The position numbers and the translations under genes were made by a program. Positions 45,188 through 57,870 of a stretch of 64,000 nucleotides of DNA are shown in pieces (the first letter of the stretch is position 1; the number at the start of each line of letters is the position of its first letter). Source of the DNA: Pseudofrankia inefficax (GTDB lineage: Bacteria; Actinomycetota; Actinomycetes; Frankiales; Frankiaceae); contig NC_014666.1 of NCBI RefSeq assembly GCF_000166135.1, positions 7,564,001 to 7,628,000 of the forward strand. Direction: 5' to 3'. Under the pieces are notes generated by a model. It was given only the letters and a program-made list of their open reading frames with translations, ran no database searches and was not told the DNA's origin.

Positions 45188-46819
45188 ATGCGCCTCGACG
45201 AGCACGGCCGCTGGGTCAGCGACGACGGCGCCTACGTGTGGGACGAGAGCGCCCAGACCTGGCAGCCGACGACGTCACGCCCCGGTGGTTCCCCAGCCGC
45301 CGGCCCGACCGGCCCCTCCGCCGCCCGCGGTGGTGGCGGGACCGGCGCCTACGGCCCCGGCGGCGGTCAGCGGCCCGCCCAGGCGGAGACCGGCGGCTAC
45401 GGGCGCCCGGGCGCCGGCCAGCAGGGCTACGAGGAGCCGCGGACCGGCAGCTTCCCGCTGTTCGGCGCGGACCCACGGGGCGGCCGCGACCGCGAGGCCT
45501 CCTGGGCCCCGGCCACCGGTCCCTACCCGCAGCCGTCCACCACCGGCCGGCCCGGATCCGGCTACGGCGCGGACCCGCCGACCGGCGCGAACCCGCTGGA
45601 CACCGGCACCAACTGGCGTGCCGGCGCGGCGCCGACCCGTGGCGGCGCCGACCGGGGCCCGGGCGCGCCCGCGGCCCCGGGCACCGGGCAGTCCCGGTCC
45701 TGGTCGGCCAGGGACCCACTGGGCACCGGCCCCTACAACCGCCCCGAACCCCTGGGCGGCGGGCAGTACGACCGTGCGGACCCGCTCGGCACCGGCCCCT
45801 ACGACCGCGCGGACCCGCTGGGCTCCGGCGGCTCCACCCGCGGCGGCTACGACCGGGCCGACCCGCTGTCGGGCCCGTTCAACCGGGCCGACCCCCTGGG
45901 TACCGGCCCGAGCACCGGCAGCTGGACGCGCGGCGGCACCGGCCCCAGCCAGAGCCGGGGCCCCGGGACCGGGCCGGCGCAGAGCCGGGCCGGCTCGGGC
46001 GGCACCGGCCCGAGCAGCGCCCGAGGGGCGGACGGTCTCGACGGCGGCCCGAGCCCCGCCATGAACCGGGCGGCGGCCCCCGTCCTGGGCGTCGACTCCA
46101 CCGGGCCGCTGCCGACGGACGCCGGCGCCCGTGGTGGCAGCGGCCGGTTCAGCACGTCCACCTTCACCAAGGCCGGCTCGGGTACCGGGCCACGGGTGGC
46201 CCGGCCCAGTGACGACCTCGACGATGACCTCGGCCGGGACGTCGACGACCTGCTCGTCGACGACGACGAGGACGACGAGGACGCCGACGAGCAGGGCGGC
46301 CTCACCGGTGCCCGCGGCAGGCTGCGTGGCCTGGCCCGGATGGGTGGCGCCGAGGCGGGTCGCCGTGGCGGCCCCGGGCACGACGAGGACGAGGACGACG
46401 ACCTGGACGAGGACGACGAGCGTGGCGGCCGGGGTAGGTCCGCCGGCGCTCTCGTCGGCAAGGTGCGGGCGTCCCGGGGCCGGATGCTCGCCGTCGGCGC
46501 GGCGGTCCTGGTCGTCGTGATCGTCGCGGTCGTGCTCGTGCTGAAGACCACCGGCGGCAGCGGCTCGTCCGGCACGGGCACCACCGCTGGCGGATCCGTC
46601 CCGGCCTCACGCCAGTACGACGCGAGCATCCGCAAGGTCTACCTCGACCAGTGCGTCCAGCAGAGCAACGGCGCGCAGGCCTACTGCAACTGCACCTTGC
46701 AGAAGCTCGAGGCCGGCTACAGCCAGGAGGACTTCCTGCGCATCAACGCCGACCCCACCTCGGCGACCGGTCAACGGGTCGTCAAGGAGATCAAGGACGC
46801 CTGCAAGTCGCTGAGATAG
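45188..46819 (+). CDS. Paralogue A: low-complexity single-pass membrane protein with SDDGAxVWD motif
   Basis: A 543-residue protein of unknown function. The N-terminus (residues 4-27, DEHGRWVSDDGAYVWDES then W25) matches that of the next gene. A Gly/Pro/Thr-rich part follows, with repeats of RADPLGTGPYDR (about 175-260). Two very acidic runs (about 338-370 and 397-414) precede one membrane helix at about 433-455. The outer C-terminal domain (about 472-543) has four Cys (DQC, YCNC, DAC) and helices, and looks folded. GAAGGA precedes the ATG. It is probably anchored with the disordered part inside the cell. Confidence 0.82.
   Translation: MRLDEHGRWVSDDGAYVWDESAQTWQPTTSRPGGSPAAGPTGPSAARGGGGTGAYGPGGGQRPAQAETGGYGRPGAGQQGYEEPRTGSFPLFGADPRGGRDREASWAPATGPYPQPSTTGRPGSGYGADPPTGANPLDTGTNWRAGAAPTRGGADRGPGAPAAPGTGQSRSWSARDPLGTGPYNRPEPLGGGQYDRADPLGTGPYDRADPLGSGGSTRGGYDRADPLSGPFNRADPLGTGPSTGSWTRGGTGPSQSRGPGTGPAQSRAGSGGTGPSSARGADGLDGGPSPAMNRAAAPVLGVDSTGPLPTDAGARGGSGRFSTSTFTKAGSGTGPRVARPSDDLDDDLGRDVDDLLVDDDEDDEDADEQGGLTGARGRLRGLARMGGAEAGRRGGPGHDEDEDDDLDEDDERGGRGRSAGALVGKVRASRGRMLAVGAAVLVVVIVAVVLVLKTTGGSGSSGTGTTAGGSVPASRQYDASIRKVYLDQCVQQSNGAQAYCNCTLQKLEAGYSQEDFLRINADPTSATGQRVVKEIKDACKSLR
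45715..45910. repeat. DPLGTG-coding repeats
   Basis: Recurring DNA units in paralogue A encode DPLGTGPYNR, ADPLGTGPYDR, ADPLGSGG, ADPLSGPFNR and ADPLGTGPST. A single DPLGTG also occurs in paralogue B. Confidence 0.75.
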
Positions 46820-47029
46820 GGCCGTCCGGGGCCGAGCAGCGGCGCCTGCCCCGGGCGGGTCCACCGAACGCCGGATGGGGCGGTCCCACCGCCTCGACGG
46901 GCAGGTCATACTGGTTGGCAACCTTTGGTCGGCTTCGTCGGGGCCTGTGGCGTCCCCGCCTCCGACCGCTCCAACCTTCACTCCACGCGCGCGGGATGCG
47001 GCGTGGCACCGGACCAGGGGTGCACAGGC

Positions 47030-49945
47030 TTGCCCACCGATGACCGCGGTCGCCTGCTGAGCGACGACGGCGCCTGGGTGTGGGACGCGGGTTCCCACCA
47101 GTGGCTGCCGCATGTTCGCCAGCCGGGCAACCCTGGGCCGTCGGTGGCCGCGAGCCGTGACGACTTCTTCGCGGTCGAGCGGGTCGACGAGGCCGCGTCG
47201 GCGCCCCGCCCGAACGGGACCACGGCCGACGCCGCCTGGGTCATCGGCGGCTCGACGACCCGGCCGCGGACAGACGGCGTGGTCGACCCGTTCGCCGTCA
47301 GCTCCAGCCACTGGGACCGCAACGGCTCGGACACCGGGCTGTCGGTCACCGGGATCGACGTCGGCCCTGCCCCGTCGGTCGCGGGCCCCACGCAGGTCAG
47401 GCCCGGCTATGGCCCCAGCGCTCAGGCTCCGGTGGCGCCGACGGCTCGGACGTGGCCCGCCCAGCCGAGCGGTGGCACGGCGGCCGAGCCCGGGCCCCAG
47501 CGCCCCAGCCCGGTCAGCGGTCCGGTCCGGTTGGGGCCGGTGACCGGCTCCGTCCGGGTTGGCGGCGACCCTCCCGTGGCCGGCCGCACCCAGCCCGCCG
47601 GCGGCGCCCCGACGGCCTGGAACCCCGGGCCGCTCCGCCAGACGCCGGGTGCCGCGTCCGGGCCCGCGGCCTCACCGCTGAGCGCTCCCGCCCCGGCCCC
47701 GGACCCGGCGGCACCCGTCAGTGCGGCGCCGAACATCTTCTTCACGCCGGCCCGGGGGCTGCCCGTCACCCAGCCGGGCGCCGGGCCGTCGTCCGGCCAG
47801 CCCGCCCCGGGGGCGACCGACGCAGGCACCCGCACGGCGAACCCGTGGGCCAGCCGCGCCGCCGAGAGCATGCGGGCCAGCCTGCCGGATGCCACGGCGT
47901 CGCCCTGGCGGACACCGACGGTGGACGGACCCAACGGACGGGCGGCTGGCTTCGACCCGTATCCCGTCGCCAGGACGTCGCCACCAGCGGCGGGCTCCCC
48001 TCCGGCCGGGAGCGCGACCCCCGGCTTCGCAGCGCCAGGCGTCCCGTCCGCGGGCAGCCAGCCGCTGAGCCCCCAGCCGTTCGGCGCGCGGCCGTCCGGG
48101 GCCCAGCCGTCCGGAGCCCAGGCGCCCGCGGTCCAAGCGCCCGCGGTCCAGACCCCCGGAGTTCGGTCACCCGGTTCCCCGGCGGCCCGCCGGGCCACCT
48201 CCGGCGAGCCGGCGCAGGCCGTCCCGGGCTTCGGCGCGGCGGCGGGCGACCCGGCGTCGAGCGACTGGCGGACGCCGGTACGGCCCACCGCGCCTCCGGG
48301 CGGCGGCGAGCCCGGGGCGAACGGACAGTGGCGCCGCCGTACGGGTAGTCCGATCATCGACCCCCGCGATCCCCTCGGCACCGGCGATCTGCCCTCGTCA
48401 CGGCCGATCACCTCGTCGCGGACCGGCCCGCCTCCCCAGCGTCCTGGCGCACCGGCGTCCCCGAGCCTCCCAGCGGCGCAGTCCCCGCTCGCGGGAACCG
48501 GCGGCCAGCAGCCAGCGGCCAGCGGCGCCGGGCTCGCGTCGGCGCCGGTCGGCCAGCCAGGCCGGCCGGCGGAACCCCGCGTCCAGGGCCCTGGACGTCG
48601 ATCCCGCCGTCACGGCCAGCCCGGCCCGGCCGCGCGCGATTCCCAGCACACGGCCGGCGACGCCGTTCACAACGGGGCATCCGCTCAGAACGGGGCCGCC
48701 GCGGCGTACGGCGAGCCGGGCCGCGGGGCGGCTCCGTTCGGCGCCGCTCCCGGCAACCACGTCGGCGCCGTTCCCGGCGCCACCGCCGGGCGCGGCCGTC
48801 GCGGCGGCGCGGAGCACGTCGGGGCCCCGCCGGCTCCGGTCGAGATGACCTCGGTGCTTTCGAGGGCGATCGGTGGCGGCCGGGCGGGCCGGGACGTGAC
48901 AGCCGACCCGAGCCGGCCTCCCGGGCCAGCCGAACAGTCGGCCGAGACTCGCGCGCGCCACGCGGACGCACCGGCGACGGACCTGCTCGATCCCGTGCGG
49001 CCGGGTGTCGGTGGCCCGGCCACGACCGGTCAGCCGGGACGGACCGGACCGCGCCGCCACACCGCGGGCCGGTCCGGAACCGGACCAGGGCCCGACCAGG
49101 GCCGGGATGAGACGCGCCGCAACGGCGGGCCGCCGGACGCCCGCGGTGGGGCGTCCGGCCCGACCGGCGGCTACCGGGGCGGCCCGGGCGAGCGTCCCGA
49201 CGACGCCCGGCCGGTCAGGGACGAGCTCGCCGACCTGCTGGAGCCGGCCATCCCGGCCGATGCCCACGAACCCGCGGCGACGGCGTCGAAGGTCGGCCCG
49301 ACCGGCACCCGGCGCAGATTCGCCACCGAGGACCTGTCCGACCTCCACGACGAGATGGCCTCGCGGCAGGCGCCGACCGCCCGGCGGGGCGCCCACGGTG
49401 ACGCGGCCGACCGGCTGACCTGGTTCCGGCACGGCTGGCTCGGGCCGCTCGCGGTGGCGGTCACCCTCGCGCTGGTCGCGCTGGGTCTCTACGTACTCGT
49501 CAGCGGCCGGGGCGGGGGCGGCCGGGGCGGCGGCAGCGTCGTCGCGACCACGCCGCCCTCCCCCGCCGGCACGAACCCGGACGCCAAGGTCGGCAAGGCG
49601 CTCGTGGACGGCACCTACATCTGCCAGGCCGGACCGTCGGCGAGCGTCTCGGCCACCGCGGGCGCCACGACGGGCGCCACCACGGTGGCGGCCGGCACGA
49701 CCAGCGTTCTGCTCGTGCCGGCGACAACCGGCACCTACACCTGGAACGGGCAGTCTGGTGCCTACGTGATCGCGACGCCGAACTACGACGACCCATCCAA
49801 CATCATCGCGTCGGTCTCGTTCTCTTCTGGACCCCTGCAGGGCGACACCGCCACCAGCATCGCCGGCTGGCCGAAGGGCGGTGGCCGAGTGACGGCGACC
49901 GTGACGCTCACCAAGGGCAACAGCATGTTCTGCAAGCTCAACTAA
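47030..49945 (+). CDS. Paralogue B: giant low-complexity single-pass membrane protein with SDDGAxVWD motif
   Basis: A 971-residue protein of unknown function. It starts LPTDDRGRLLSDDGAWVWD, aligning residue for residue with paralogue A; TTG 47030 is chosen for that reason. GTG 47003 is an alternative. About 770 residues of Pro/Ala/Gly/Ser-rich sequence follow, with one DPLGTG (DPRDPLGTGDLP). One membrane helix lies at about 804-825. The outer domain (about 840-971) is Thr/Ser/Gly-rich with beta character (TSVLLVPATTGTYTWNGQSG) and two Cys (YICQAG, MFCKLN) that could form a disulfide. Confidence 0.78.
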   Translation: MPTDDRGRLLSDDGAWVWDAGSHQWLPHVRQPGNPGPSVAASRDDFFAVERVDEAASAPRPNGTTADAAWVIGGSTTRPRTDGVVDPFAVSSSHWDRNGSDTGLSVTGIDVGPAPSVAGPTQVRPGYGPSAQAPVAPTARTWPAQPSGGTAAEPGPQRPSPVSGPVRLGPVTGSVRVGGDPPVAGRTQPAGGAPTAWNPGPLRQTPGAASGPAASPLSAPAPAPDPAAPVSAAPNIFFTPARGLPVTQPGAGPSSGQPAPGATDAGTRTANPWASRAAESMRASLPDATASPWRTPTVDGPNGRAAGFDPYPVARTSPPAAGSPPAGSATPGFAAPGVPSAGSQPLSPQPFGARPSGAQPSGAQAPAVQAPAVQTPGVRSPGSPAARRATSGEPAQAVPGFGAAAGDPASSDWRTPVRPTAPPGGGEPGANGQWRRRTGSPIIDPRDPLGTGDLPSSRPITSSRTGPPPQRPGAPASPSLPAAQSPLAGTGGQQPAASGAGLASAPVGQPGRPAEPRVQGPGRRSRRHGQPGPAARDSQHTAGDAVHNGASAQNGAAAAYGEPGRGAAPFGAAPGNHVGAVPGATAGRGRRGGAEHVGAPPAPVEMTSVLSRAIGGGRAGRDVTADPSRPPGPAEQSAETRARHADAPATDLLDPVRPGVGGPATTGQPGRTGPRRHTAGRSGTGPGPDQGRDETRRNGGPPDARGGASGPTGGYRGGPGERPDDARPVRDELADLLEPAIPADAHEPAATASKVGPTGTRRRFATEDLSDLHDEMASRQAPTARRGAHGDAADRLTWFRHGWLGPLAVAVTLALVALGLYVLVSGRGGGGRGGGSVVATTPPSPAGTNPDAKVGKALVDGTYICQAGPSASVSATAGATTGATTVAAGTTSVLLVPATTGTYTWNGQSGAYVIATPNYDDPSNIIASVSFSSGPLQGDTATSIAGWPKGGGRVTATVTLTKGNSMFCKLN

Positions 49946-50112: not shown

Positions 50113-51672
50113 ATGCACAGGTCTGACCGTCTTATGGGTAAGAAGCGGCCGAACGGCACCTCTGCTGCCGGGGTCACCGCCGCCGTCGCGGACCAGCCGC
50201 AGATGGCCGACGGCGCAACGCCCATGACGACGAGCCAGGCCAGCGCAGACGCCATTCCGGCCGCTACCGGCCCGGCCGGCGCGACCGCGGCCGAGCCCGA
50301 GACCCACCGAGGCTTCCGCTTCGTCGACCGGCGGGCACTACTGCGGCTCGCCGGCACCGCGGCGGCCATCGCACCCGCGACCAGCCTCCTGGCCGCGTGT
50401 TCCGGCTCCAAGGGATCGAGCGGGGTACGGCCGGTCCGGATCGGCGTGGTCACGCCCCAGTCGGGCTCGCTCAGCGCGTTCGCCTCGACGGACCTGTTCG
50501 TCACGGACTACATGACCACCTGGTTCAAGGACCACGGTGGCATCGCGGTCGGCAACTCCACCCACCCTGTCGAGATCTTCATCCGCGACAGCCAGTCGAC
50601 CTTCGCCCGTGCCGCCAAGGCCGCGACCCAGCTGATCTACGAGGACAAGGTAGACATCGTCCTGGTCGACGCGACCTCCGACACGGTCAACCCGGTCGCG
50701 GACCAGTGCGAGGTCGCCGGCGTGCCGTGCATCTCCACGATGGCGCCCTGGGAGTCCTGGTACTTCTCGCGCGGCGGCACCATCGACCTGAAGAACCCGT
50801 TCAACTGGACCTTCCACTTCTTCGCGGGCCTCAACGACTACTACCAGGCCTATTCGTCGATGTGGGGGGACCGCGTCGCGACGAACCGGACCGTCGGGGC
50901 GTTGTGGCCGAACAGCGTCGACGGGCAGTGGTTCTCGCACCCCAAGCTGCCGTTCCGCGCGGGCCTCGACAACAACTGGAAGCTGGTCAACCCGAAGCAG
51001 CTCGACGGCAAGGGCAGCCAGCAGGACTACCTCTACACTCCGGGCACCAAGGACTTCAAGCCGCTCATCTCGGCGTTCCAGGCCGGGAACGTCCAGATCG
51101 TCACCGGCATCCTGGACGAGACGGACTTCGCGCAGTTCGAGCGAGACGCGGGTTCGAAGAGCTTCGAACCGAAGATCATCACGGTCTCCAAGGCCGCCAT
51201 GTTCGACAGCGACCTGCGCACCATCGGCGCCCAGGTCAGTAACAACCTCACGACCGAGCTGTTCTGGTCCGAAAGCAGCCCGAACCGCAGTTTCGTGACC
51301 AACCTGCCGTCCAAGGACCTCGGCCAGAAGTACCGCGCCGAGACCGGCCGCCAGACCTCGCCGCAGCAGCTCGGCGCGTCCATGGCGCTGTTCGATGTCG
51401 CCGCGCAGGCCCTCAGCGCGATCAACTCGATCGATGACCGGAAGTCGATCGCCTCCGCGCTGAAGAGCCTGACCGCGCGGACGATCCTCGGCGAGGTCAA
51501 GTTCGGCGCCCGCGAGGGCCTGCCGCAGAACGTGGCCACGATCCCGCTGAACGGCGCGCAGTGGCGGTGGCACCAGGACAGCTACACCTTCGAGCTGGTC
51601 CAGGTGAACAGCAGCGGCAACAACGCGCTACAGAACCAGGGCCAGCTCGGCCCGATCACCTACGACGCCTAG
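50113..51672 (+). CDS. Orphan ABC-type substrate-binding lipoprotein (amino acid/amide type)
   Basis: A 519-residue periplasmic-binding-protein-like lipoprotein. A twin-arginine-like segment (VDRRALLRLAG, R73-R74), hydrophobic stretch and lipobox SLLAAC put the lipid-bearing Cys at C96. A ~70-residue N-terminal region in front is unusually long, so a later start is possible (ATG 50224). The mature part begins RIGVVTPQSGSLSAFASTDL, typical of branched-chain amino acid/urea/amide binding proteins (Peripla_BP_6). No permease or ATPase gene is near, so it may serve a distant transporter or act as a sensor for the nearby conservon. Confidence 0.85.
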   Translation: MHRSDRLMGKKRPNGTSAAGVTAAVADQPQMADGATPMTTSQASADAIPAATGPAGATAAEPETHRGFRFVDRRALLRLAGTAAAIAPATSLLAACSGSKGSSGVRPVRIGVVTPQSGSLSAFASTDLFVTDYMTTWFKDHGGIAVGNSTHPVEIFIRDSQSTFARAAKAATQLIYEDKVDIVLVDATSDTVNPVADQCEVAGVPCISTMAPWESWYFSRGGTIDLKNPFNWTFHFFAGLNDYYQAYSSMWGDRVATNRTVGALWPNSVDGQWFSHPKLPFRAGLDNNWKLVNPKQLDGKGSQQDYLYTPGTKDFKPLISAFQAGNVQIVTGILDETDFAQFERDAGSKSFEPKIITVSKAAMFDSDLRTIGAQVSNNLTTELFWSESSPNRSFVTNLPSKDLGQKYRAETGRQTSPQQLGASMALFDVAAQALSAINSIDDRKSIASALKSLTARTILGEVKFGAREGLPQNVATIPLNGAQWRWHQDSYTFELVQVNSSGNNALQNQGQLGPITYDA

Positions 51673-51962: not shown

Positions 51963-52559
51963 CTACGCGCGCAGAGCGGCGCGGGACATCGTGTGCTCGA
52001 CCACCGCGATCAGCGCGGTCTTCGTCGAGTCACGGTTACGGGCGTCGCAGGTGATGATCGGCACCGACGGGCTGATCTGCAGCGCCTCGCGGACGTCTTC
52101 GATCGAGTGCCGCAGCACCCCGTCGAAGCAGTTCAGACCGATCACGAACGGCAGCTGGCGCTGCTCGAAATAGTCCACGGCGGCGAAGCAGTCGGCCAGG
52201 CGGCGGGTGTCGGTGAGCACGATCGCGCCGATCGCGCCGCGCACGATGTCGTCCCACATGAACCAGAACCGGTACTGCCCCGGCGTGCCGAACAGGTAGA
52301 GGATCAGGTCCTCGTCGAGCGACACCCGGCCGAAGTCCATCGCCACCGTGGTCGTGGTCTTGTCGACCAGGTGGGTCAGGTCGTCGACGTGGGCGCCGGC
52401 CTCCGTCATGACGGCCTCGGTGCGCAGCGGCACGATCTCCGAGACGGAGCCCACGAAGGTGGTCTTCCCCGCACCGAAACCGCCGGCAACGACGATCTTG
52501 ACCGAGGTGGTCGCGATCGATGAGTTGACGCGTCTGTGGTCAGAGCTTTCGTAGGCCAC
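51963..52559 (-). CDS. Conservon small GTPase (CvnD-type)
   Basis: A 198-residue Ras/MglA-like GTP-binding protein, last gene of a four-gene conservon. P-loop VVAGGFGAGKTTFVGSVSE, switch-II region LFGTPGQYRFWFMWDDI and a GLNCFDG segment, where most GTPases have NKxD, are visible. By family knowledge it cycles between membrane-bound GTP and GDP states controlled by the roadblock and kinase partners. The GTG start overlaps the DUF742 gene by 20 bp, a typical conservon arrangement. No cytochrome P450 gene follows, unlike some conservons. Confidence 0.92.
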   Translation of the reverse strand: MAYESSDHRRVNSSIATTSVKIVVAGGFGAGKTTFVGSVSEIVPLRTEAVMTEAGAHVDDLTHLVDKTTTTVAMDFGRVSLDEDLILYLFGTPGQYRFWFMWDDIVRGAIGAIVLTDTRRLADCFAAVDYFEQRQLPFVIGLNCFDGVLRHSIEDVREALQISPSVPIITCDARNRDSTKTALIAVVEHTMSRAALRA

Positions 52560-52896
52560 TGAGAACCCTTTCGAGCAACGCGAGATCCGGCGCCTCGTCG
52601 CGGTCCGGCTGCTGGTGTACGCGGACGAAGCCCTCGTCCGCCATGTCGCCGACGAGCACCCTCGCGACTCCGAGGGGCACCCGCAGGCCGGCGGCGATCT
52701 CGGCCACTGAACGAACCTGGCGGCACATGGCAGCAATGGACTGCTGCTCAAGGCTGAGGCCGATCGCGCGTTCCTCGCCGTACTGGGTGGTGATGACGAG
52801 CGCCTCGATGGCGAGCTCGTAACGCGACCGGGTACGACCCCCGGTCATGGCGTACGGCCGGACGACTGGTCCCGGCGGGCCCCCCATTTCGCTCAC
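52540..52896 (-). CDS. DUF742 protein (CvnC-type)
   Basis: A 118-residue conservon component with a winged-helix-like region: VRPYAMTGGRTRSRYELAIE, QSIAAMCRQVRSVAEIAAGL, VARVLVGDMADEGFVRVH, ending LALLERVLSGLRKL. This is the DUF742 hallmark set. Its biochemical role is not established. GGGAG lies 9 bases before the GTG. It overlaps the GTPase gene by 20 bp. Confidence 0.93.
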   Translation of the reverse strand: MSEMGGPPGPVVRPYAMTGGRTRSRYELAIEALVITTQYGEERAIGLSLEQQSIAAMCRQVRSVAEIAAGLRVPLGVARVLVGDMADEGFVRVHQQPDRDEAPDLALLERVLSGLRKL

Positions 52897-52948
52897 GCTG
52901 GCATCTCCCTCACCTCGGATGGAATCACCGCGTCAGCGATACGCCCGG

Positions 52949-53374
52949 TCATCGCGGGAGCGTCCCTTGCAGCTCCTGGCGCAGCGCGGGCGTGAGGACC
53001 GCCTTGGCCCGGCTGACCAGCAGTGCCATCTCGTAGCCGACCAGGCCGATGTCACAGGACGGCGCGGCCAGCACCGCCATGCTCGCCCCATCGCTGATCG
53101 CCATGATGAACAGGAAGCCGTGTTCCATCTCGACGACCGTCTGGGTGACCATTCCGGCCTCGAAGACGCGAGCGGCACCCTGGGTGAGGCTGACCAGACC
53201 GGAGGAAACCGCGGCCAGCTGGTCGGCGCGGTCCCTCGGGAAGCCGTCGGAAACCGCCAACAGGAGTCCGTCAGCGGAGACCACGACGGTGTGCGCCACA
53301 CCCGGAACCCGGTCGACGAAATTGTTGATCAGCCAGTTCAGGTTCTGCGCCTCGGCGCTCACCACCGGTCTCAC
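52949..53374 (-). CDS. Roadblock/LC7-domain protein (CvnB-type)
   Basis: A 141-residue roadblock-fold protein thought to act as a GTPase-activating or scaffold partner of the conservon GTPase. Segments LNWLINNFVDRVPGVAHTVV, SADGLLLAVSDG and MEHGFLFIMAISDGASMAVL are typical. The GTG overlaps the histidine kinase stop by 4 bp (GTGA), so it is translated in step with the kinase. Confidence 0.94.
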   Translation of the reverse strand: MRPVVSAEAQNLNWLINNFVDRVPGVAHTVVVSADGLLLAVSDGFPRDRADQLAAVSSGLVSLTQGAARVFEAGMVTQTVVEMEHGFLFIMAISDGASMAVLAAPSCDIGLVGYEMALLVSRAKAVLTPALRQELQGTLPR

Positions 53375-56300
53375 CGTTCCTCCTGCCCGTCGCGGCGGGC
53401 GCTTCTCGTCTCGGCACCCATGTCCCGTCCCTGCCGGACACCCTGGTAGAAGCTGGCGAGCCGTCCGCCAACCGCTTCGGGGGACCTGGTCGCGGCGTCA
53501 GCTGGCCGCGGCGGGGTCTTGCGATTACTGGCCGGCTCAGCGCTGCCGGGGACTAGATGGGTCATCGGCACCCGCAGCGGCAAGCCCGCCTTGGTCGTCG
53601 AGTTCTGCTCGTCACTGGGCGGCTGCCGCAGCGCCTCAGCCGCCTGCCAACCGGCGTCGCCGGCCGACTCCCACGAGCGCGGCTCGCCGCCGCCCCGGAC
53701 GGGCAGTTGCGGATCCGTGCCCCGCACAGGCAGTGGCGGATCAGCGCCCCGTACGGGCAGTGGTGGCTCCGCGCCACGCATCGGCAGCGGCGGCTCGGCC
53801 GGGCGCGGCCCGGTCTGCTGCTCCGTGTAGGCGGCCGGCTGACGGTAGCCGCCTCCGTTGAGACCACCGGTGCTCAGGCCGCCGGTGTTCGGGCCGGTAC
53901 CGCCGCCCATCCCGTTGTCCGTGCGCAGCCCGGCGGCTGGACGCATCGGCGTTGGGGCCGGCATCGGCGCGGGCGCCGGCGTCGGTTCGGGACGCTGCAT
54001 CTGGTTGTCGCCCAACCCGCCGTTGCCCATGACCCGCATGCCCGCGGACGCGCGGGGCGCGGTGAACGCGGCCGGCGGCGGGGCGAACGCCCCCGGCGGG
54101 GTGGTCTCGACCACCGGGTCGGGACCACGCCGGGCCTCGTCGCTCGGCGAACGGCGCTGGAACCAGGCCGAGACCGAGTCGAAGATCGGAGTGGTGTCGA
54201 CGTCCTCGCCCTCGCCGACGTACAGCTCGCCGGTGTCCTCGGCCCGCGGCCGGGCGTAGCCACCGGTTGTCGGCTCCTCCCAGCGAGGCCGCGGCACGTC
54301 CACGGGCTCCGGCTCCGGCCGGTGCGCGGGGCGCGCGAACACGTTCTCCTGCGGGTCCGGCTGCGCCGGCTCGCGGTAGCCGGCGCCGTTCTGGTAGCCG
54401 GGGTCGCTCGGGTAGTCGTCGGCACCCTGGTACCCGCTGGCACCCTGGTAGCCGCTGTCGCCCTGGTAACCCCTGTCGCCCTGGTAGCCGTTGTCCGCCT
54501 GGTAGCCGCTGTCGCCCTGGTAGCCGTTGTCGGCCTGGCGGGCGCGGTCGGGCATCGGCAGCGGGCTGGTGCCCGGGCGCTGCATCGGGCCGGTGTGGTC
54601 GAGCGAGTCCGGGCTGACCGGGCGCTGCGCCGGGAACTCACCGCTCCACGACTCCCGCAGGTCGACCGGGCCAGTCCGCGGGCCACGCCGATCGTCGTCG
54701 TACCCGGGCCCGTCGAACCGGGGCTCCTCGAACTGAGGCTCGTCGTACCGCGGCTCGTCCGGCCGGGGCTCTTCGCGCTCGGGCTGGTAGCCACGCTGCT
54801 GGCTCGGGCCGGTCCCCGGCTGCATGCCCGGGAAGGGGCCGAACCGCTGGGTGTCCTCTTCGGTGTACCGCGGCTGCTCCTGAGCCGGCAGCGGCACCGG
54901 GCCGGTCCTCGGGCCGCCCTGCTGGCTGCCGGGGCCGATCGCGAGCGGCGGGGGCCCGAACCGACCGGGGTCGATGGCGGGCAGCGCGCCGCTCGGCGGG
55001 CCGAACCGCTCGTCCTGGTCCTCGTACCCGTCTGGCTGCTGCCGGCCGCGGCCGTTCTCCTGGCCGGGGCCGAACTGCTGCGGGCCGCCGAAGGCCTGGC
55101 GGACCGGGCCGGTCGCGGGGCCTCCCGACCCGGCACCCAGCTCGGGCCGGCCCGCACCGGTACCGGGGGCTCCGAAGCCCGGCCGAGACCCGGTGTCAGC
55201 GCCCGGCCGGCCGATGGCCGCCGACGCACCCGGCCGCTGCGACCCCGGGCCCGTCCCGCCGCCCACGGCGTCGCCGGTGACCAGCTTGGCTGGCAGCCGG
55301 ATCACCGCGGTGATGCCGCGGGAAGGCGACTCGCGCAGCTGGACGCGGATGCCGTGCCGGCCGGCCAGCCGACCGACCGCGAACAGGCCCATCGTCCGGG
55401 ACACCGACACGTCGACGACCGGCGGGTTCGCGAGCCGCTCGTTGACCCGCTCCAGGTCCTTGGCCGGCATGCCGATGCCCATGTCGACGATCTCGATCAT
55501 GGCGCCGGCACCGGGGCCGAGGGAGTGGCTGGTGACGACGACGTCCGTCGCCGGCGGGGAGTACGAGGTCGCGTTCTCCAGCAGCTCCGCGATCAGGTGG
55601 ACGACGTCGCTGACACCGTTACCGGCGATGGACACCGGAGCGGCGGTCGTCTGCTTGACGCGGGTGTACTGCTCGACCTCGGAGATCGCCGCGAGGACGA
55701 CCTCGTTGAGCGGGACCGGGTGGGTCCAGCGCCGAGCGGTGTCGGTACCGGCGAGAACCAGCAGGCTCTCGTTGTTCCGCCGCATTCGGGTGGCGAGGTG
55801 GTCCAGCTTGAACAGGTTGGCGAGCTGGTCCGGGTCCTGCTCGCGGTTCTCCAGGTCGTCGATGAGGCGCAGCTGGCGCTCGACGAGGCCCTGGGAGCGG
55901 CGAGACAGGTTGACGAACATCGCGTTGACGTTGTTCCGCAGCACGGCCTGCTCGGACGCCAGCCGGACGGCCTCGTGGTGAACCTGGTCGAACGCCCGGG
56001 CGACCTCGCCGATCTCCTCGTCGGTGTCGATACCGACCGTCTCGACCTCGTCGTCGATCACCTGCTCGGACGAGTCTCGCAGTCTTCGGACGGCGTCGGG
56101 CAGTCTTCGCTCGGCGATGTCGAGGGCCGCGGTTCGCAGGGCGAACAGCGGGCGGATCAGCGACTGCGCGACCACCAAGGTGATGATCAGCGCGGCGGCC
56201 AGGATCAGGACGGTGAACAGGGCGGAGAAGATCGCCTGCCGCTCGATCCCGCGCCGCAGGGTTCCGACCCGCGAGTTGATCTGATCCAGCATGCCGTTGG

Positions 56301-57360
56301 CGACGCTGTAGCTGACCGTGATCATGGCTCGGGTGTTCTGCAGCCACTTCGTGGACTCGATCTGGTCGATCTGTCCGTCGTTGAGCGGCTTGGAGACCGT
56401 CGAGTTGAGCACCCGGTCAGTGTTCTTCAGGGTGTTGAAAACGTCGTTGTTCAGGCGCGGGTCGAGTGCCTGCTCATACAGCGTCTTCTGAGCCGGCGAC
56501 GCGGACTTGTCAAACTGGTCGAGTTCGTTGTTGCGTTCGGCGTCGGTGCTCAGCACCGACCGGAACTCGTCACTGGTGAATGGCAGCTCGGACACCAGGT
56601 AGGTGTTGATCTGGGCCTGCTGCTGAGCGAGGAGGTCGGTCGCCCGGACCAGGTGCAGGGTCGCGTCGACGGAGCTGTCCAGCTGCCGGTCGTCGTTGCC
56701 CTGTGGGATCAGGCCGACGAGGTCGATCAAAGGTTCGATCATGGAGTCGTACGAGGTCATGACCGAGACCGGGTCGGTCAGCCTGCCGATGGCCGCGCGC
56801 TTGGTCGGCAGACCGTCAAGGCCGGTCGCGACCGCGTCGAGCGCCTCGTTGACCTGGGGGCTGAACGACCCGCGCTTGCCGTTGGCCACGTCCTGGTAGG
56901 CCTTGTACGAGGCGTCGACCGCTTTCTGGCGGGCCACGACCGGGTCGGAGGCTGGTGCCTGGTTGACCGCGCGCAGGGCCACATATTCAGCGGTGAAGGT
57001 GCGCTCAAGTTCGACGTTGTACGCGAGGTCGAGCGCGGAGCGGTCGATGGTGATCAGGTGCGAGACCCGGTTGATGTCCCGGGTACTCGTGAGCACCGAA
57101 CTCGCGTCGATCAGGGCGTTGACGATGATCGCAACGACCGGGATCGCGAGGATCGCGATCAGCTTGGTACGAACCCGCCAGCTCGACGGGTTGGACAGGA
57201 CGCCGCGGCCACCGCGACTCCCGCCACCTCCGTCGGGGGGTCGAGCCACAACGGGGCGCTCACCGCGGCCCCCGTCTTCCACGACGGGAGCGCCCGGCGC
57301 CGGCATCGGCATCGGGTCTGCGGCGATGCCCGTGCTGCTGGCCATCGGTTGTCTGCGCAC
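53371..57360 (-). CDS. Conservon sensor histidine kinase (CvnA-type) with giant disordered tail
   Basis: First gene of the conservon, about 1329 residues. After a Pro/Gly-rich N-terminus comes one helix (KLIAILAIPVVAIIVNALI), an outer nitrate/nitrite-sensing (NIT-like) domain (DLAYNVELERTFTAEYVALR), a second helix (LFTVLILAAALIITLVVAQ) and a HAMP-like linker. The dimer/phosphoacceptor region is around LDHLATRMRRNNESL. The HATPase domain has N-box AELLENATSYSPP near residue 593 and DMGIGMP. Some 640 residues of Pro/Gly/Gln-rich tail follow. GTG 57360 has GGAGAGG upstream; ATG 57345 and 57450 are alternatives. Confidence 0.9.
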   Translation of the reverse strand: MRRQPMASSTGIAADPMPMPAPGAPVVEDGGRGERPVVARPPDGGGGSRGGRGVLSNPSSWRVRTKLIAILAIPVVAIIVNALIDASSVLTSTRDINRVSHLITIDRSALDLAYNVELERTFTAEYVALRAVNQAPASDPVVARQKAVDASYKAYQDVANGKRGSFSPQVNEALDAVATGLDGLPTKRAAIGRLTDPVSVMTSYDSMIEPLIDLVGLIPQGNDDRQLDSSVDATLHLVRATDLLAQQQAQINTYLVSELPFTSDEFRSVLSTDAERNNELDQFDKSASPAQKTLYEQALDPRLNNDVFNTLKNTDRVLNSTVSKPLNDGQIDQIESTKWLQNTRAMITVSYSVANGMLDQINSRVGTLRRGIERQAIFSALFTVLILAAALIITLVVAQSLIRPLFALRTAALDIAERRLPDAVRRLRDSSEQVIDDEVETVGIDTDEEIGEVARAFDQVHHEAVRLASEQAVLRNNVNAMFVNLSRRSQGLVERQLRLIDDLENREQDPDQLANLFKLDHLATRMRRNNESLLVLAGTDTARRWTHPVPLNEVVLAAISEVEQYTRVKQTTAAPVSIAGNGVSDVVHLIAELLENATSYSPPATDVVVTSHSLGPGAGAMIEIVDMGIGMPAKDLERVNERLANPPVVDVSVSRTMGLFAVGRLAGRHGIRVQLRESPSRGITAVIRLPAKLVTGDAVGGGTGPGSQRPGASAAIGRPGADTGSRPGFGAPGTGAGRPELGAGSGGPATGPVRQAFGGPQQFGPGQENGRGRQQPDGYEDQDERFGPPSGALPAIDPGRFGPPPLAIGPGSQQGGPRTGPVPLPAQEQPRYTEEDTQRFGPFPGMQPGTGPSQQRGYQPEREEPRPDEPRYDEPQFEEPRFDGPGYDDDRRGPRTGPVDLRESWSGEFPAQRPVSPDSLDHTGPMQRPGTSPLPMPDRARQADNGYQGDSGYQADNGYQGDRGYQGDSGYQGASGYQGADDYPSDPGYQNGAGYREPAQPDPQENVFARPAHRPEPEPVDVPRPRWEEPTTGGYARPRAEDTGELYVGEGEDVDTTPIFDSVSAWFQRRSPSDEARRGPDPVVETTPPGAFAPPPAAFTAPRASAGMRVMGNGGLGDNQMQRPEPTPAPAPMPAPTPMRPAAGLRTDNGMGGGTGPNTGGLSTGGLNGGGYRQPAAYTEQQTGPRPAEPPLPMRGAEPPLPVRGADPPLPVRGTDPQLPVRGGGEPRSWESAGDAGWQAAEALRQPPSDEQNSTTKAGLPLRVPMTHLVPGSAEPASNRKTPPRPADAATRSPEAVGGRLASFYQGVRQGRDMGAETRSARRDGQEER
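53690..53810. repeat. PLPVRG-coding repeats in the conservon kinase tail
   Basis: Successive ~30-base units encode PPLPMRGAE, PPLPVRGAD, PPLPVRGTD and PQLPVRGGG. Confidence 0.7.
54427..54534. repeat. Six in-phase 18-bp tandem repeats
   Basis: Six consecutive units resembling CTGGTAGCCGCTGTCGCC encode GYQGDS/GYQADN hexapeptides in the kinase tail. Less regular units continue to about 54390. Confidence 0.88.
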
Positions 57361-57870
57361 GTACTTCGCAACCTCTCCGCCGGCCCCCCGGAACAGGGCG
57401 TTCTGGGGATGGCCCGGTATCGGACCCGGATGTCCCTCGGTCGGCACCATAGCGGTACCGAGTTCGCGCTCGAAAGGTGGCTACCTTACGCCACGTACTA
57501 CGAAGCTACGAGTTGTGTGCCTGATGCGCACTTCATGAGGCCCGCCCACGCCGGGTAGGTGGCACGCAGCCGTCGGAACATCACGGGTGCGACGCACGGT
57601 CGCCACCGAGGAAGACCGGAGGGATGCCGTCAGCGTCACCACCGCGACGGATCTCGATAACCGTCCGGAGTGCTTTGGAAGCCATGTGATCGAGATGGCC
57701 GACCTTCATCGGAAGATGTTTCCGAGAGTTTCAGGCCAGATACGTATTGTTAACATGCGCGCGATCTGGCAATCCGGACGCGCCACCCCGTGCCCGTCGC
57801 GGGTCCGGTGTTCCGGCGGGCGACGCGCCGGCGGCGGCCGACCGGTGGCGCTGCTCCGTAGACTTGGCAG
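57361..57870. promoter_or_regulatory. AT-richer divergent region between the conservon and guaA
   Basis: A 510-base gap separating outward-facing transcription units. The stretch at about 57690-57770 is noticeably AT-rich (contains GTATTGTTAACATG). A 95-codon plus-strand frame crosses it but has no ribosome-binding site and its codon use changes midway, so it is not called. Confidence 0.5.
57859..57864 (+). promoter_or_regulatory. Putative -10 hexamer TAGACT, leaderless guaA
   Basis: TAGACT ends 6 bases before the guaA GTG, and no ribosome-binding site is seen. Both facts fit a leaderless transcript. Confidence 0.5.

Follow-up and report, generated by a model that had tools for sequence, protein, structure and literature searches.

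Two adjacent membrane proteins of the Frankiaceae that share an N-terminal mini-domain

Two neighbouring genes of Pseudofrankia inefficax, here called A and B, encode proteins that open on the same short pattern and then differ in length, chain and outer domain, and the question raised by the locus is what a common N-terminus might do at the head of two otherwise dissimilar membrane proteins. The genes lie in the window (the whole stretch of DNA that was analysed, 64,000 nucleotides, positions 7,564,001-7,628,000 of a single 8,815,781-base contig), where their neighbourhood is one of purine genes: groEL (38709), a DUF5319 gene (41364), guaB (42037), guaB3 (43811, upstream of A) and guaA (57871, beyond the gene for a lipoprotein discussed below).

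Two coding frames and the mini-domain they share

Gene A (45188..46819, plus strand) encodes a 543-residue bitopic membrane protein, predicted to have its N-terminus inside and its C-terminus outside, and starts at an ATG 3′ of a GAAGGA-like ribosome site. Gene B (47030..49945, plus strand) encodes a 971-residue bitopic membrane protein and starts at a TTG (47030) in a frame that is open from 46820; in relatives of B the codon at this site is ATG or TTG. The first-pass annotation of this DNA had the frames, lengths and coordinates of both genes right, and both are coding: GC3 is 0.93 in A and 0.89 in B, the frames are open across the family with conserved ends, and substitutions against near relatives are in excess at third codon positions (24/12/67 and 55/26/109 by codon position for A, 160/153/268 for B). 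An untranslated frame is ruled out for either gene by this substitution pattern together with the conservation. No RNA family was found in the A/B region.

The shared N-terminal pattern that had been noticed by eye is confirmed by direct comparison: A and B are 48% identical over 33 residues (BLASTP, E = 3e-7), and the common stretch reads MxxDxxGRxxSDDGAxVWDxxxxxWxP. BLASTP found nothing above composition noise between the remaining parts of the two proteins, so A and B share a domain and are not full paralogues; the term used in the first-pass annotation holds for the first ~28 residues, which are homologous, but not demonstrably for the disordered chains and outer domains. Searched against the whole 8.8 Mb genome, the motif of A matches itself and B (9.7e-5) and then noise, and no third copy was found there.

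In A this mini-domain occupies residues 1-28 (MRLDEHGRWVSDDGAYVWDESAQTWQPT; 45188..45271, plus strand). It has three conserved aromatic positions and is folded in the AlphaFold2 (AF2) model built from a 20-sequence alignment, with pLDDT values of 94/95/88 for the successive tens of residues 1-30 and short beta strands at residues 2-3, 9-10, 16-19 and 24-27. No other part of A is as strongly constrained (mean pairwise identity 86% among 18 homologues). The corresponding residues 1-28 of B (MPTDDRGRLLSDDGAWVWDAGSHQWLPH; 47030..47113, plus strand) are homologous to it and are 69% identical on average among the B proteins that carry the mini-domain. Among Pfam and NCBIfam models none was found for the mini-domain, and a PDB sequence profile search with the motif gave nothing significant.

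Disordered chains, single helices and outer domains

Behind the mini-domain, A continues as a disordered inner chain (residues 31-430; 45278..46477, plus strand) that is rich in Gly, Pro, Ser and Asp, lacks Cys, has pLDDT mostly below 50 up to residue 430 and is only 32% identical on average. Direct reading of this chain gives the DPLGTG repeats (45713..45907, plus strand): three exact copies (residues 176-181, 198-203 and 235-240) and the variants DPLGSG (209), DPLSG (225) and NPLDTG. As had been noted earlier, B has a single copy (residues 447-452; 48368..48385, plus strand, also by direct reading), and the other window ORFs of at least 100 aa have none. DPLGTG is common to A and B in the window's genus only and is missing from both elsewhere; in most members of the genera g2 and g6 (Parafrankia and Frankia cluster 1 are among them), the corresponding site of B reads DPLSGPLP. 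Its restriction to one genus in both proteins led us to reject DPLGTG as a family-wide docking motif.

The chain of B has conserved islands of its own. The strongest, DDFFAVERV (residues 44-52; 47159..47185, plus strand), is kept in essentially all B proteins and has 82% mean pairwise identity in a chain that otherwise has 32%; each genome has one match, which lies in B with hardly any exception. Further islands are DPF(A/D)VS (residues 86-91; 47285..47302, plus strand; 16 B homologues), whose core is DPF(A/D)V, then DPL(G/S), VEMTSVLSR (residues 604-612; 48839..48865, plus strand; VEMTS..R across homologues) and VPADRRRTPNP, the last not in every genus. These islands look like candidate short linear docking motifs. 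In Frankia sp. AgB1.9 (L039 6795-10027, minus strand), B is split into two overlapping frames of 717 and 600 aa; either a frame shift or an error in the assembly lies within the disordered chain.

A and B each have a single late hydrophobic helix, as first described (hydropathy 434-452 in A, 807-825 in B). The transmembrane helix of A spans residues 432-454 in the AF2 model (46481..46549, plus strand) and its region is 38% identical on average; that of B (residues 807-825; 49448..49504, plus strand) was located by hydropathy and AF2, in a construct that begins at residue 798 and has the helix at construct residues 7-29. In all 18 A homologues, 3-5 Lys and Arg residues precede the helix and 0-2 follow it, and these charges favour an N-inside orientation. 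Cysteines follow the same division, with none in 6980 inner residues of the 18 homologues against 72 in 1643 outer ones. A single helix, a positive-inside bias and cysteines outside only, the features of a bitopic N-in/C-out protein, are thus all found in A. B likewise has one helix and its cysteines outside (2/13925 inner residues, 32/2348 outer), with a weak charge bias around the helix. The distribution suggests that the cysteines of both proteins lie outside the cell, probably in disulphides.

The two outer domains are predicted to be quite different. That of A (46616..46816, plus strand) is made of four helices (residues 479-542, pLDDT about 90), is 50% identical on average and holds Cys 489, 500, 502 and 539, all of them invariant in the 17-20 homologues compared. 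That of B (49577..49942, plus strand) is modelled as an eight-stranded beta-barrel (pLDDT mostly 80-91), is 42% identical on average and holds Cys 865 and 968, both invariant across homologues. When A, B, the motif and the outer domains were scanned against Pfam and NCBIfam, no match was accepted; the two outer domains gave nothing significant in PDB sequence profile searches, a fold search of the PDB with full-length A gave nothing convincing, and the outer domains had no convincing fold match that would indicate a function. The C-terminal domain of the Rv0361 family (NF051431) matches weakly across the helix and outer domain of A (E = 0.0018, 4 of 20 homologues), but at 18.5 bits, against a cut-off of 37 bits, A does not belong to that family, and the match may reflect only the helix and low-complexity sequence. 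The four-Cys outer domain also occurs on proteins without the mini-domain (L041 9959-11101, L043 4456-4647 and L054 9923-10375, all on the minus strand), one of which has a Gly/Tyr/Gln-rich chain and a helix of its own.

The order of mini-domain, disordered chain, helix and Cys-containing outer domain, proposed in the first-pass annotation, is well supported by AF2, the distribution of cysteines, conservation and a charge bias that is clear for A. Conservation along the chain then hints at what the inner end could do. That the innermost end of a flexible, quickly evolving chain should carry a mini-domain that hardly varies would be accounted for most simply by a conserved cytoplasmic partner, and the identity of the mini-domain (86%) and of DDFFAVERV (82%) against that of the chain (32%) is consistent with a binding surface for it. 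The reading that we prefer, to which we would give an even chance, is that A and B are lineage-specific single-pass tethers that dock on such a partner. Both mini-domains would dock on the same conserved cytoplasmic protein, the disordered chains of 400-800 residues would link them to the transmembrane helices, and the helical four-Cys domain and the beta-barrel could in this way be brought to the same site in the cell envelope. DDFFAVERV would be a second candidate cytoplasmic docking motif of B, remaining where the mini-domain has been lost. Of the two roles suggested earlier, a tethered scaffold or a receptor, the former fits best; what speaks for a receptor is only the calycin-like barrel of B and the lipoprotein encoded next to it.

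A conserved locus in the Frankiaceae

The pair belongs almost entirely to one family. A search of 41 genomes found the outer domain of A in 25, with a single one of these outside the family. Among 394 genomes sampled across the class, 34 match the outer domain of A (32 in Frankiaceae) and 36 that of B (33 in Frankiaceae), the three B matches outside the family covering part of the profile only, at E 2.6e-4 or weaker. The A-B pair is almost wholly missing from the non-Frankiaceae actinomycetes sampled. One genome of another family (G033) encodes two complete A-type proteins, each with the motif, the helix and the four-Cys domain. A search with the motif pattern over 84,980 species gave 27 confirmed loci, all of them titled Frankia, Pseudofrankia, Parafrankia, Protofrankia or Frankiaceae. 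A phylum-wide profile search with the mixed motif, among the best 20 candidates per genome, recovered only the own genome of 396; that search may miss divergent copies, and a later one with a related repeat profile found more. A motif limited to a single strain is therefore excluded, as motif and pair run through the whole of the Frankiaceae. A role as a symbiosis factor was considered and rejected: not only nodule strains have the pair but also Pseudofrankia, which belongs to cluster 4, and cluster 4 is termed non-infective (PMC10252897).

Wherever a Frankiaceae locus has both A and B, the gene order is guaB3-A-B-lipoprotein. In a deep Frankiaceae lineage (G013; L051 2863-8025) the order is guaB3-A-guaA, with both B and the lipoprotein missing at the locus and no full B found genome-wide, which suggests that, of the two, A may have come first. 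B itself carries the mini-domain in the window's genus, g3 and g5 and is without it in g2 and g6, where its frame begins just 5′ of RRDDDFFAVERVGE and no mini-domain remnant was seen in the gap upstream. Given that B lost the mini-domain in two genera and yet stays conserved, B can do without the shared dock, a point against the tether reading, as is the weak charge bias around its helix.

The lipoprotein gene (50113..51672, plus strand) encodes a Peripla_BP_6 substrate-binding protein (Pfam E = 1.3e-32) with a twin-arginine-like signal and a lipobox (RRALLR and LAAC), and about 70 extra residues precede these. It gives rise to the main rival of the tether reading: A, B and the lipoprotein could form an envelope sensing or uptake unit in which a ligand, or the lipoprotein itself, is bound by B's barrel and the state is relayed inward through the disordered chains and mini-domains of both A and B. 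B and the lipoprotein are adjacent wherever B was found in loci covering the region, both are missing at the G013 locus, and the lipoprotein is an orphan without an adjacent ABC permease or ATPase, all of which would suit such a unit; the joint absence, however, concerns one lineage and could be one event, and neither A nor B has an enzymatic or signalling domain. The barrel cuts both ways. Like the calycin-like barrels (Cap15 receptor, avidins, lipocalins, U-Omp19; fatty-acid-binding folds are similar too), it is modelled with eight strands and matches at Z 5 to 8, but at ~10% identity and with Z in the range of common arrangements. The best VIA hit (Z 8.1) is middling and, by the tool's own note, within the range of chance arrangements, the best Foldseek hit has E 0.3, and the two terminal cysteines of B, which likely form a staple, set it apart from the calycin-like barrels. 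On balance we consider the sensing unit unlikely. Farther on, the window holds a conservon-like set (51963-57450, minus strand) with a 1359-aa nitrate-sensing histidine kinase, a Roadblock protein and an ATP_bind_1 GTPase-like protein; the ORFs scanned there did not include DUF742, a usual conservon member.

Related mini-domains and known systems

Outside the pair, the A/B motif profile aligns with a repeat of family f14, SPDGxWxWDGTAWxPV, over 24 columns (hhalign 98%, E = 2.8e-13), and the f14 repeat profile in turn finds A in its own genome and in several of the same genus (E about 4e-4). If an SPDG-W-WDG-W-P mini-domain is defined by an S-x-D-G core, W-(D/N), a second Trp 4-7 residues on and then Pro, the A/B motif is a member. 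In four genomes of family f5 a related mini-domain precedes a Pro-rich chain and a TM2 segment; in G137 one precedes DUF4190 and an exported tail and another is part of a zinc-ribbon-like membrane protein; and in G107 one stands before a single helix plus an unrelated outer region. The expectation that one motif would be joined to many outer domains is in part borne out by these TM2, DUF4190, zinc-ribbon-like and unrelated single-pass proteins, but the examples are few so far. The f14 proteins themselves (L099 1165-1959, L100 5919-6425 and L101) are small, with four to five copies and a Lys/Ala-rich tail, and no membrane helix is evident in them. One SPDG-W-WDG-W-P copy grazes DUF6087 (PF19565) below its cut-off, and a five-repeat protein had no match in plasmid and phage collections.

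These proteins also bear on whether the mini-domain is a dock at all. It could instead be a folding, oligomerisation or membrane-targeting element that A and B share since the 5′ end of B was copied from A, an origin with which the adjacency of the genes and the later loss from B in two genera would agree; the element is small and aromatic-rich, and A and B carry it nowhere but at their very N-terminus. In f14, however, four or five copies occur within one protein that has no evident membrane helix, in a G137 protein the related mini-domain lies far from the start, and near-invariance over a family exceeds what a bare fold needs. We give this alternative little probability. The docking reading can be extended, tentatively and with rather less conviction than for A and B alone: the SDDG/SPDG-W-WDG-W-P mini-domain might be an undescribed docking module that recruits unrelated membrane proteins to one cytoplasmic hub, A and B being two of its users and DDFFAVERV a B-specific second site. 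On the preferred reading, too, the A/B mini-domain belongs to a wider set that fronts diverse actinobacterial membrane modules, a usage much like that of DUF2510. If it is such a docking tag, identifying its partner would uncover a hub in the cytoplasm by which actinobacterial envelope proteins are positioned, and would offer a first handle on a pair kept beside purine genes in nearly every Frankiaceae genome examined. Regardless of docking, the analysis defines a pair that is conserved across the family and a mini-domain for which neither Pfam nor NCBIfam was found to have a model.

DUF2510 (PF10708) is the nearest known comparison. It too is a short aromatic mini-domain that actinobacterial proteins, membrane proteins among them, carry close to the N-terminus, and in actinobacteria it also fronts single-pass exported proteins. 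The mini-domain could therefore be a diverged DUF2510 and A and B ordinary DUF2510 membrane proteins: size, position and aromatic content (W...WDG..W) are similar, and DUF2510 proteins are present in the same genome. At the profile level this is disfavoured. The DUF2510 profile tested (GWYPDP..G..RWWDG..WT) and the A/B motif do not match (hhalign probability 0.5%, 7 columns aligned), Pfam scans of A, B and the motif gave no DUF2510 match, and A and B are not members; the DUF2510 proteins sampled are, moreover, mostly soluble or multi-pass. We regard this derivation as very improbable. The SPDG-W-WDG-W-P proteins are closer: like A and B, they usually have the mini-domain at the N-terminus, followed by a Pro-rich chain and membrane helices, but their core is SPDG where that of A and B is SDDG, and they continue into TM2, DUF4190, zinc-ribbon-like or other segments or carry four to five repeats. 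As far as these tools show, the pair itself is undescribed, and its architecture is a variant of a known actinobacterial habit, in which a mini-domain is followed by a Pro-rich chain, a helix and an outer domain.
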